Virus record (IMG/VR): IMGVR_UViG_3300025086_000236
Location: 1-24,109 of that record
DNA length: 24,109 nucleotides
Source of the DNA: a virus
Direction: 5' to 3' (one strand)
This document shows positions 22,399 through 24,109 of the stretch, in pieces; position 1 is the first letter of the stretch, and every line of letters begins with the position of its first letter. A program made the translations under genes and the position numbers. The notes beneath the pieces are model-generated. The model was given only the letters and a program-made list of their open reading frames with translations. It searched no databases and was not told where the DNA came from.

Positions 22399-22581
22399 AT
22401 GCCTTATACAACTTATAAACAATACAAATTAAGAGATGGTACTTTAGTTACGGATTCAATAAAAGTCCCAAAAACTTCTGATCATCATGATATTTATATC
22501 CCATTCGTGGCAGATAACACCGATTATCAAGAGTATCTAAAGTGGGTAGCAGAAGGTAACACTGCAGATGCAGCCGATTAA
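22399..22581 (+). CDS. Small conserved-looking protein (60 residues), unknown function
   Basis: The ATG at 22399, 2 nt after the previous stop, gives 60 residues. An earlier ATG at 22372 would add nine residues inside the fibre gene and is less likely. The sequence begins MPYTTYKQYKLRDGTLVTDS and ends in DNTDYQEYLKWVAEGNTADA, with the YxEYLxWxAEGN pattern that recurs in small proteins next to phage fibre genes. There is no signal peptide or TM segment. It overlaps the next gene by 14 nt. A fibre-assembly or capping role is possible from context only. Confidence 0.7.
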   Translation: MPYTTYKQYKLRDGTLVTDSIKVPKTSDHHDIYIPFVADNTDYQEYLKWVAEGNTADAAD

Positions 22582-22966
22582 GCTGCCAAGAGCTACCCTA
22601 CCTAAGCCCATACACCTACCCACAATCGACTTCAAGCCACCTACAGCTCGGATTCCAGGGTATAAGCCTATGGTAATCCCTCCGAGCGATCTGGAGGCTC
22701 CTGAAGAGGTAGAACCTGAAGAAACATCTGAACAGCCTGAACCACCTAGTTTAAAGATTCCTGTATTGGATATACAAATGCCAATACCTGAAGCTGCTGT
22801 CGTGGTTACTGCTGTAACAACAGCGGTGGTAGCCGTTGCTACTACTACTATTACTCAATCTTTATTTGAACCAATTAAAAAGAAAGTTCAAAAACAACTA
22901 CAAGCCAAAGTTAATAAATGGAAGGAAAAGAGGAAAGCCCGAAACCAAACCTCCTCACCAAGTTAA
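22568..22966 (+). CDS. Proline-rich protein with one membrane segment
   Basis: The protein has 132 residues in three parts. Residues 1-65 are proline-rich with a repeated basic-to-hydrophobic pattern (IKLPRATLPKPIHLP, then PEEVEPEE). Residues 75-96 are one hydrophobic Val/Ala/Thr segment (AAVVVTAVTTAVVAVATTTI). Residues 101-132 are a strongly basic helical tail (EPIKKKVQKQLQAKVNKWKE, then KRKARNQ). I do not recognise a family. It is encoded between the fibre block and a holin-like protein and overlaps both neighbours. A membrane role during late infection is an inference. The Pro-rich arm could span a periplasm if it faces outward. Confidence 0.7.
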   Translation: MQPIKLPRATLPKPIHLPTIDFKPPTARIPGYKPMVIPPSDLEAPEEVEPEETSEQPEPPSLKIPVLDIQMPIPEAAVVVTAVTTAVVAVATTTITQSLFEPIKKKVQKQLQAKVNKWKEKRKARNQTSSPS

Positions 22967-23055
22967 AAGATGCAGCAGAAGATACTGAGCACCATATAGC
23001 GGTGCTTGGAACTTTTGTACGTCTTGGTGTAGTGGTCTGGTCGGGCTTTATTTGA
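22918..23055 (+). CDS. Holin-like membrane protein, N-terminal half (frame interrupted)
   Basis: The ORF runs from ATG 22918 to TGA 23055, gives 45 residues, and overlaps the Pro-rich gene by 49 nt. It has a polar N-terminus (MEGKEESPKPNLLTKLKDAA) followed by a hydrophobic helix from residue 27 to the stop (IAVLGTFVRLGVVVWSGFI). It stops inside that membrane segment. In the -1 frame immediately after, translation would continue as LIITLNYVEIP and then the product of the next entry. Adding one base in the TTT run at 23051-23053 would join them into one 104-residue protein. The segment therefore looks like part of a two-TM protein split by a deletion, a sequencing error or recoding. Confidence 0.65.
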   Translation: MEGKEESPKPNLLTKLKDAAEDTEHHIAVLGTFVRLGVVVWSGFI

Positions 23056-23231
23056 TCATAACTCTTAACTACGTTGAGATACCAATGATCAAAAAGACCC
23101 AAAACACAGATATCACGTTCGTAGCCAGTATATTTGGGTCTGCACTTTATTCGTTTGGTTTACAGACAAATAACGGAAAAGGCAACGGTAAAACTGTTGA
23201 ATGTCCAATGGCTAAGAAAAAGGAAACATGA
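23052..23231 (+). CDS. Holin-like membrane protein, C-terminal half
   Basis: This frame directly continues the preceding half: LIITLNYVEIPMIKK, then a second hydrophobic helix (ITFVASIFGSALYSFGL), then a basic Gly/Lys-rich tail (NNGKGNGKTVECPMAKKKET). It could be translated alone from TTG 23052, which overlaps the TGA of the first half as TTGA, or from ATG 23085. It could also be joined to the first half by frameshift. The whole would have two membrane segments and a charged C-terminus, the layout of class II holins, and it lies where T7 has holin gene 17.5. The sequence shows membrane character; holin function is inferred. The stop overlaps the next start (ATGA). Confidence 0.6.
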   Translation: MIITLNYVEIPMIKKTQNTDITFVASIFGSALYSFGLQTNNGKGNGKTVECPMAKKKET

Positions 23232-23599
23232 AAAAATGGCTAATACTCTTATTACTGGCAGCACCGACGGTAGCGAGAGCGGAGTTAGTTACTCCCAATT
23301 TTACACAAGGATCGATGAATTCTACCACCACGACTACTCAGGAAATCGTGGAGGAAATAACGACAACTACGTACGGGTCAGCCCTACAGAAATGGTCAGG
23401 CGACAACCTGACTCACTCTTCCGCTTCATCAGGAGGCATAACCGATTCCGATTCGGTATGGAACTTAACAACTGCTGGAAGCGACTTCACTTTAGAAGTA
23501 GTAACAAGAGCAGCCAGCCAGGTTCTCTCGATCACAGAAATAGAAAGAGAAATCGACACTACATCTACTACGGTCTCCTTATCAGTCTTCTCTCAGTAG
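23228..23599 (+). CDS. Secreted Thr/Ser-rich protein, wholly overlapped by another gene
   Basis: The protein has 123 residues. MKKWLILLLLAAPTVARA is a clear Sec signal peptide with a cleavage site after residue 18; no lipobox Cys is present. The mature protein is rich in Thr and Ser (MNSTTTTTQEIVEEITTTTY) and ends with ITEIEREIDTTSTTVSLSVF, suggesting beta structure in the periplasm or outside the cell. AAGGA (23220-23224) lies just before the ATG. Every base from 23236 onward is also coding in a second frame (next entry). I believe related proteins exist in other cyanophages but cannot confirm this. Its position after a holin-like gene suggests a lysis or envelope role; that is inference. 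Confidence 0.75.
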   Translation: MKKWLILLLLAAPTVARAELVTPNFTQGSMNSTTTTTQEIVEEITTTTYGSALQKWSGDNLTHSSASSGGITDSDSVWNLTTAGSDFTLEVVTRAASQVLSITEIEREIDTTSTTVSLSVFSQ

Positions 23600-24109
23600 C
23601 ACCAGTTCGTGCTGAAGATGAGACGAATAATGTCTCCAATCCTGTAGCTGCAGCCACCGGAAATGTGACCAATCAAGCAGTGATGTTCCAGAACAACGGT
23701 GCGCCGTCGAGACAGCACTACGGACCTAACATCTCATGTAATGGTGCGACGATGACTTTCTCGCCGTTCTACATGGGGAACCATACGACTCCCTATGACG
23801 ACGTTATGGCTCAACAGAGTTACACCGTCGCTGAGAACTGGGGAGGACAGATTAACTTTATGATCCCACTAGATCGTGAAGGTTTGCGTAGATGTAGAAG
23901 CATTGCAGCTAGGCAAGAGGAAAAGATGCGCCTGGACTACGAGTTGGTTCGTGCTCTCAAATGTGCAGAGCTCCAACAGAAAGGCTTCATGCTGGTTCCT
24001 AAATCACGTGTCTACAGCCTTTGTAGTGATGTGATTCCTATAGCTGCATATCTTAAACAGCAAAAACCCAAAGAGGTAAAGGAAGAAGGGTGGTCAATAC
24101 CCAATCCAT
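23236..24109 (+). CDS. Envelope protein with internal membrane/signal segment (3' end outside window)
   Basis: The frame is open from ATG 23236 to the end of the window (291 residues, no stop reached). It starts 8 nt after the start of the secreted protein gene and covers all the rest of it in a different frame. Residues 1-108 are aromatic- and Arg-rich (EMVRRQPDSLFRFIRRHNRF, then NNCWKRL). Residues 109-126 are hydrophobic (YIYYGLLISLLSVAPVRA, with a possible cleavage site after Ala126). From residue 127 follows an exported-looking domain with NVSNPVAAATGNVTNQAV, SRQHYGPNISCNGATMTF and a helical REGLRRCRSIAARQEEKM. Cys168, 220, 243 and 263 may form disulfides. Later ATGs (23392, 23458) lack a ribosome site. 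Function unknown. Confidence 0.75.
   Translation, partial: MANTLITGSTDGSESGVSYSQFYTRIDEFYHHDYSGNRGGNNDNYVRVSPTEMVRRQPDSLFRFIRRHNRFRFGMELNNCWKRLHFRSSNKSSQPGSLDHRNRKRNRHYIYYGLLISLLSVAPVRAEDETNNVSNPVAAATGNVTNQAVMFQNNGAPSRQHYGPNISCNGATMTFSPFYMGNHTTPYDDVMAQQSYTVAENWGGQINFMIPLDREGLRRCRSIAARQEEKMRLDYELVRALKCAELQQKGFMLVPKSRVYSLCSDVIPIAAYLKQQKPKEVKEEGWSIPNP

Follow-up and report, generated by a model that had tools for sequence, protein, structure and literature searches.

The two genes at the end of the window, which is the whole stretch of DNA analysed (24109 bases of a cyanopodovirus whose closest isolates are Cheungvirus NATL1A-7 and the Tangaroavirus phages), constitute a true nested gene pair with a probability of about 0.8, gene D being read in another frame from gene C. 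Selection on both frames, conservation of both starts, an overlap whose size depends on the clade and the ATGA geometry at the head of C are seen directly in the sequences compared, and these patterns suggest that both C and D are translated. The evidence that phages of ocean cyanobacteria have here overprinted the genes of two exported proteins is strong. Besides, the living series of overlaps (56, 64, 67, 112, 166, 193 and 364 nt) illustrates how a gene may extend upstream into its neighbour, at low cost because only a leader is overprinted; the start geometry together with the graded overlap series is an unusual variant of overlapping genes.

The original prediction described two ATGs only 8 nt apart (23228 and 23236) that open two frames, the first encoding a signal-peptide protein that stops at 23599 and the second free of stops up to the end of the window. 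An ORF check bears out this geometry (Table 1). In loci with an identical sequence here (L016, for example) the second-frame product has 295 aa, which places only the last 4 residues of D outside the window; the D frame in the window is already open 5' of 23236. It also holds that such a long open second frame is unexpected, the chance being about 2% per sequence, but not that the DNA is AT-rich: the GC content of the C/D region is 46%, the highest in the window.

Table 1. Position of the C/D pair, its parts and the neighbouring genes A and B in the window
Feature	Position	Strand	Description
Gene A	22568..22966	+	phrog_9426 (E=3e-47); probable membrane protein, head of the module
Gene B (DUF6450)	22918..23231	+	PF20048 in two pieces: 22918-23055 and, in another frame, 23052-23231; last codon TGA, sharing bases with the C ATG (ATGA)
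AAGGA	23220..23224	+	Possible Shine-Dalgarno for C, from the sequence; AGGA-type motif in part of the relatives only
Gene C	23228..23599	+	ORF of 123 aa; phrog_650, distant DUF6322; exported, N-terminal signal peptide MKKWLILLLLAAPTVARA
Gene D	23236..24109	+	ORF open at the window end; phrog_848/phrog_1755
Doubly coding stretch	23236..23599	+	364 nt of D; the whole of C minus its first 8 nt
D start codon	23236..23238	+	Formed by the last base of codon 3 of C (AAA) and the TG of codon 4 (TGG, Trp)
Internal ATG of D (+164)	23392..23394	+	Equals the D start position in the Synechococcus-phage clade (S-RIP2 type)
D hydrophobic segment and A-x-A site	23563..23613	+	Residues 110-126, IYYGLLISLLSVAPVRA; spans the C stop codon
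Predicted mature exported D domain	23614..24109	+	From alignment, Cys columns and AlphaFold2

Related loci were collected by three queries, namely D, C alone and the non-overlapping part of D, and the C-alone query does not favour loci in which D is open. All 74 usable new loci of the C-alone search nevertheless have an open D frame, as do 77/77 and 60/60 loci of the other two query sets. Among 141 distinct C ORFs of 372 nt (pairwise identity 0.69-0.99) it is free of stops in every one, and the remaining sense frame of C carries 14.8 stops per ORF. Shuffling of the synonymous codons of C yields an open D frame about 2% of the time, the mean expectation being 3.3 stops. At the degenerate C positions that precede AA, AG or GA, where a T would generate a stop in D (stop-making sites), T is found at 0 of 2171 synonymous sites in the 141 ORFs, compared with 24% (four-fold) and 55% (two-fold) at other degenerate sites of the same genes, and with 44% (four-fold) and 78% (two-fold) at equivalent sites in ordinary genes of the window. 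Because the compared sequences share ancestry, these counts lack independence. A parsimony count on the C tree, which lessens but does not remove this effect of kinship, gives 76 changes at stop-making positions in the columns before +164 (counted from the A of the C start), none of them to T, against 111 of 405 changes (27%) at safe positions, and at the latter rate the chance of finding none is about 3e-11. Four-fold divergence across three parts of C is 0.40, 0.42 and 0.29, the corresponding values being 0.54 for the rest of D and 0.48 for gene A.

Synonymous-site constraint in both frames had been proposed as a way to check the pair, and suppression plus stop avoidance were found, together with conservation of both starts; selection on both frames is supported. 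The opposite reading, in which the D frame is open by chance or composition and only C (or only D) is a gene, would be conceivable for any one sequence, where the odds of an open D frame, given C, are about 2%. For the set as a whole its probability is negligible, and it was discarded on the 141/141 and 74/74 open frames, the 0/2171 sites and the 0/76 parsimony changes: the avoidance hits stops only, the third frame has about 15 of them, and the families of both proteins extend beyond the window clade.

ATG is present at 0 and at +8 in 140 of the 141 distinct C ORFs; in the remaining one (L121) an extra codon brings the spacing to 11 nt, with the second ATG at +11 and the D start retained via CTA TGG. 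The A of the D start, which is the third base of codon 3, shows no change by parsimony on the C tree, compared with 47 changes for the third base of codon 2. Related to this, the +8 ATG is the first possible D start in 96 of 135 relatives. It could be argued that translation of D begins solely at the internal ATG at +164 (23392), the upstream opening being a by-product of the C sequence, since the D start of a related clade lies at the same position, the annotators of P-SSP10 chose it, and the ATGs at +8 and +164 both derive from an xxA-TGG (Trp) pair in C. This explanation is improbable, because stop-making T is missing upstream of +164 too (0/692 sites, and no T among the 76 changes where 27% would be usual). 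The S-RIP2-type clade, which truly starts there (mostly as TCA TGG), has T at 270 of 394 stop-making sites (69%) upstream of its D start versus 4 of 732 (0.5%) in the overlap. Moreover, the +164 codon of the nested clade varies between ATG, GTG and TTG (12 changes by parsimony), whereas +8 is constant; the conserved Met at +164 was rejected as a real start since it reflects a conserved Trp codon of C, and drifts.

Still less credible is a slippage model, in which ribosomes (or RNA polymerase) that began at the C ATG slip by -1 on the A run ATGAAAAAATGG and so reach D. Codons 2 and 3 of C in the window are AAA AAA, and a slip there enters the D frame exactly; nevertheless, codon 2 is AAG, AAC or AGA in 87 of the 141 ORFs (66, 18 and 3, respectively, with AAA in 54), the base needed for the ATG is conserved, and other clades open D at various places far downstream. 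A programmed -1 frameshift from C into D was also rejected, the slippery A run being conserved in part of the sequences only.

The suggestion that a single AAGGA could serve both starts is not fully supported: its spacing is good for the C start only, and the motif is absent from some relatives. AGGA-type motifs are found in 124 of 198 close loci and are rarer before the internal starts of other groups, and no well-spaced Shine-Dalgarno for the D start is present in the sequence. On the other hand, the stop of gene B overlaps the C ATG (as ATGA) in 118 of 126 close loci, the figures for the other groups being 63/63, 63/67 and 56/61, and in the nested clade 5 nt separate the B stop from the D ATG, so that termination-reinitiation could serve both starts. 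To judge from this geometry, coupling to the B stop fits better than one shared Shine-Dalgarno. Ribosomes ending translation of B at the ATGA would already stand on the C start and be 5 nt short of that of D, and termination-reinitiation after B would feed both; we infer that this is the probable route to C and D.

D-frame stops in related phages had been named as a finding that would speak against the pair. Early D-frame stops within C do occur in more distant cyanophages, but D then starts later, after those stops and still within C. The overlap measures 193 nt in 77 of 78 S-RIP2-type loci, and many loci of the P-SSP7 type have 67 or 112 nt. Of the 76 loci related to cyanomyovirus S-H38, 72 share 64 nt; P-SCSP1d and P-SCSP2 overlap by 56 nt, S-RIM8 and Syn9 by 166 nt. 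Across clades, D mostly starts at a base preceding a Trp codon of C. Besides the S-RIP2 type, T at stop-making sites falls from 248/734 (34%) upstream to 7/255 (3%) in the overlap in P-SSP7-type phages, and from 436/917 (48%) to 16/151 (11%) in myoviruses; the residual sites of these two groups are possibly due to variable starts. In all these counts stop avoidance begins at the own start of each clade, which maps the D start by selection alone. The stops of distant phages refine the nested-gene idea rather than refute it, because D starts after them and avoidance begins there.

Only the cyanopodovirus clade to which the window belongs has full nesting and the dual start. In a tree of the non-overlapping part of D, the fully nested form is one clade within shorter-overlap phages, with a support of 81, which is moderate and comes from a quick tree. 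Since the nested form is one clade, a single upstream move of the D start is most likely, and the most economical reading of the tree. Ancestral D would have begun inside C, with an overlap of about 56 to 193 nt like that of other cyanophages, and in the window clade its start would have shifted upstream to the head of C; the former start position (+164) has now drifted to GTG and TTG there. The reverse direction, in which the longer overlap was lost in other clades, is possible given the moderate clade support.

Profile searches relate D to phrog_848 (E=4e-59) and phrog_1755 (E=5e-54). An alignment of 81 D proteins displays a variable basic leader, a hydrophobic stretch and a conserved domain. 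The hydrophobic segment already noticed in the second-frame product is indeed present; it is the hydropathy peak of D and ends in the nearly invariant A126 of the A-x-A site. Cys 168, 220, 243 and 263 are invariant and belong to the conserved domain beyond C. The leader (residues 21-105) is about 52-55% identical between loci, compared with 76% for the exported part. In D of the window clade the hydrophobic stretch comes after 109 residues; in S-H38-type D it comes after 13-15 and resembles an ordinary signal peptide. What selection maintains in the overprinted part seems to be its character as a leader and not a particular sequence, because the signal segment is more hydrophobic than in synonymous C shuffles that keep D open in 32 of 32 sequences and the positive charge just before it is above the shuffles in 91% (32 sequences tested). 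D would thus be a second exported protein whose functional domain lies past the end of C, the part shared with C giving no more than a basic leader of some length and a hydrophobic, signal-like segment, and the two genes can share 364 nt because this leader is loosely constrained as protein. The leader is probably cleaved off. The AlphaFold2 model of D contains a beta hairpin and a 35-residue helix; block-mean pLDDT is 82-89 over residues 201-260, pTM is low (0.36), and comparison of the model with the PDB returned no match at E<=0.001.

Protein C matches phrog_650 (E=3e-31) in a profile search. Its relation to DUF6322 is distant, 15.1 bits for the window protein against a cut-off of 30.6, and the S-RIM8 homologue reaches E=7e-43. 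C is conserved in the 141 distinct ORFs and across podo- and myoviruses. The AlphaFold2 model (mean pLDDT 83, low pTM of 0.41) has two very long beta strands of 23-24 residues (27-49 and 99-122) on either side of a small domain. A Foldseek comparison with the PDB gave no match at E<=0.001, the insignificant resemblances including phage tail or collar proteins and the stems of beta-barrel pores. Among viral models, those that match best are for the most part phage proteins without assigned function, some from marine phages. Pfam yielded no above-cut-off match for C or D of the window, a sequence search of the PDB nothing significant, and the papers searched no mention of DUF6322, DUF6450 or the PHROGs concerned. 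C may be described as a putative exported, beta-rich envelope protein.

Genes A, B, C and D form a conserved envelope-directed module in phages killing Prochlorococcus and Synechococcus. The P-SSP7 homologue of A is annotated with one transmembrane region, and the A profile hits the C-terminal region of the T4-GC 234 protein of cyanomyoviruses (E=2e-4). B is holin-like, has about 100 aa in intact relatives, and is annotated with two membrane segments in P-SSP7. DUF6450 was found in 22 of the 22 C/D-bearing records tested: Syn9, P-SSM2, S-RIM8, P-SSP7, P-SCSP1d and seventeen more. In Syn5, P60 and S-PM2, none of DUF6450, C and D was found. In P-SSM2, B corresponds to T4-GC 218 and D to T4-GC 235; A is similar to the final part of T4-GC 234. 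A five-gene cluster of T4-GC 218, 219, 234, 235 and 237 has been reported in all cyanomyoviruses but S-PM2, and was described as mobile and thought to be functionally linked, with no function named (Sullivan and colleagues, PMC3037559). In P-SCSP1d and P-SCSP2 (L248:2383-3468 and L249:2250-3335) B-C-D is a compact block whose direct neighbours have the opposite orientation, which would fit a module that travels as a whole.

Gene B of the window is itself broken, especially at 23040-23060, by a conserved element TGGTCGGGCTTTATTTGA..TCATAACTC. Compared with intact relatives there are 5, 7 or 8 extra nt, with a TGA inside the first membrane segment, and the rest of B continues mostly in the -1 frame, with a TTG overlapping the TGA. 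The interruption recurs in about 10 contigs and in isolate SS120-1 (L005, L095-L097, L100, L103-L105, L112, L139 and L179), and 94 close loci are intact; it may reflect reinitiation, a frameshift or a dying gene. In cyanomyoviruses, a phrog_564 gene (annotated as OMP1 in S-RIM8) stands directly before C (L244:3207-3659, L502:8551-9015), and its product shows a weak relationship to C (phrog_650, E=1e-3), which an old duplication may explain.

A-B-C-D would act jointly on the host envelope, most likely at lysis; this proposal is tentative and has rather less than even odds. Under the hypothesis of a lysis role, the exported pair beside a holin-like gene is a reasonable candidate for disruption of the outer membrane. 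P-SSP7, P-SSM2 and Syn9 are listed among the phages in which no spanin was found, and it has been allowed that an outer-membrane protein could act as a spanin (Kongari and colleagues, PMC6139136). How these phages open the outer membrane is now directly testable via C and D. The fuller scheme is speculative and unlikely: C and D, with DUF6450 as the holin, would make up the system for outer-membrane disruption that many marine cyanophages have seemed to lack. They would replace a spanin without any lipoprotein, C as an oligomeric outer-membrane beta-barrel and D as its periplasmic or inner-membrane partner, and their dosage would be set by starts 8 nt apart behind the holin stop. Syn5, P60 and S-PM2 are on the same no-spanin list (PMC6139136) and lack C and D, therefore the pair cannot explain the whole list. 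The literature on the Syn5 horn offers no usable link to the pair, and Syn5 is without families B, C and D.

A canonical two-component spanin was rejected, as no lipobox was found within the first 45 residues of 81 C and 81 D proteins. Compared with what is expected of an i-spanin, D combines a basic leader and a single hydrophobic stretch with a predicted periplasmic domain that includes a long helix, but also has a conserved A-x-A resembling a cleavage site. As regards spanin gene order, the architecture is overlapping, DUF6450 is adjacent, co-occurring and holin-like only, and no endolysin gene adjoining the pair was identified. Related to this, D could remain uncleaved as a type II inner-membrane protein (N-in, C-out) and form with C, located in the outer membrane or periplasm, a spanin-like bridge. 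The long basic cytoplasmic leader, the single hydrophobic stretch, the periplasmic domain with the 35-residue helix and the overlap of the genes, as in two-component spanins (PMC6139136), would suit such an arrangement, which we nonetheless regard as rather unlikely: the stretch is short (about 15-17 residues) and ends in the conserved A-x-A, the S-H38-type segment with its n-region of 13-15 residues resembles a cleavable signal peptide, and C has no lipobox.

It is also quite conceivable, with odds not far below even, that C and D serve outside lysis, as virion, adsorption, superinfection-exclusion or nutrient-envelope proteins. The module comes after the tail-fibre genes, the weak and insignificant Foldseek likenesses of C are to phage tail and collar proteins and beta-barrel pore stems, and the cluster containing the D and B families was called functionally linked with its function unnamed (PMC3037559). 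However, internally assembled virion proteins are not expected to carry signal peptides, and podo- and myoviruses alike retain the targeting of C and D for export.

In terms of architecture, the embedded two-component spanins lambda Rz/Rz1 and T7 18.5/18.7 likewise have one exported-protein gene entirely inside another in a different frame, late in the phage genome and near a gene for a small membrane protein, and gene callers often miss one member of such pairs (PMC6139136). The C/D pair differs from them in having no lipoprotein; besides, the start of its longer gene follows that of the shorter one by 8 nt and the conserved domain of the longer gene lies past the overlap, whereas in most embedded spanins the inner gene lies within the distal half of the outer one (PMC6139136). 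The homologous genes gp165/gp166 of the cyanomyoviruses Syn9 and S-RIM8 overlap by 166 nt, only partially, with D beginning inside C, and in cyanomyoviruses B lies kilobases from C/D on the other strand, whereas in the window B adjoins C. Overprinted genes in general (reviewed in PMC8227390) also place a second frame over an existing gene, the newer part being less constrained, but here the overprint extends an existing gene 5', as a leader only, and present-day relatives still show intermediate overlap sizes. In E. coli, ambiguous initiation at AUGUG/GUGUG (PMC9841429) similarly uses two close start codons for two frames; in C/D the spacing is 8 nt, both starts are ATG and initiation is likely coupled to termination of the upstream gene.

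None of the 6 isolate records of the nested clade annotates both complete genes: those of NATL1A-7, 9515-10a and P-SSP6 have the long D and no C, that of NATL2A-133 has C and a truncated D, that of P-SSP10 has only D, shortened to +164, and that of P-SCSP-R27W has no annotation. Elsewhere in the window, a small cyanophage outer-membrane beta-barrel gene (PF24653 Phage_OMP, E=6e-45) lies at 648-1004 on the + strand, just 5' of psbA, and a glutamine-II riboswitch (RF01704, 47.2 bits) at 2126-2179, also on the + strand, between psbA and the gene at 2495.
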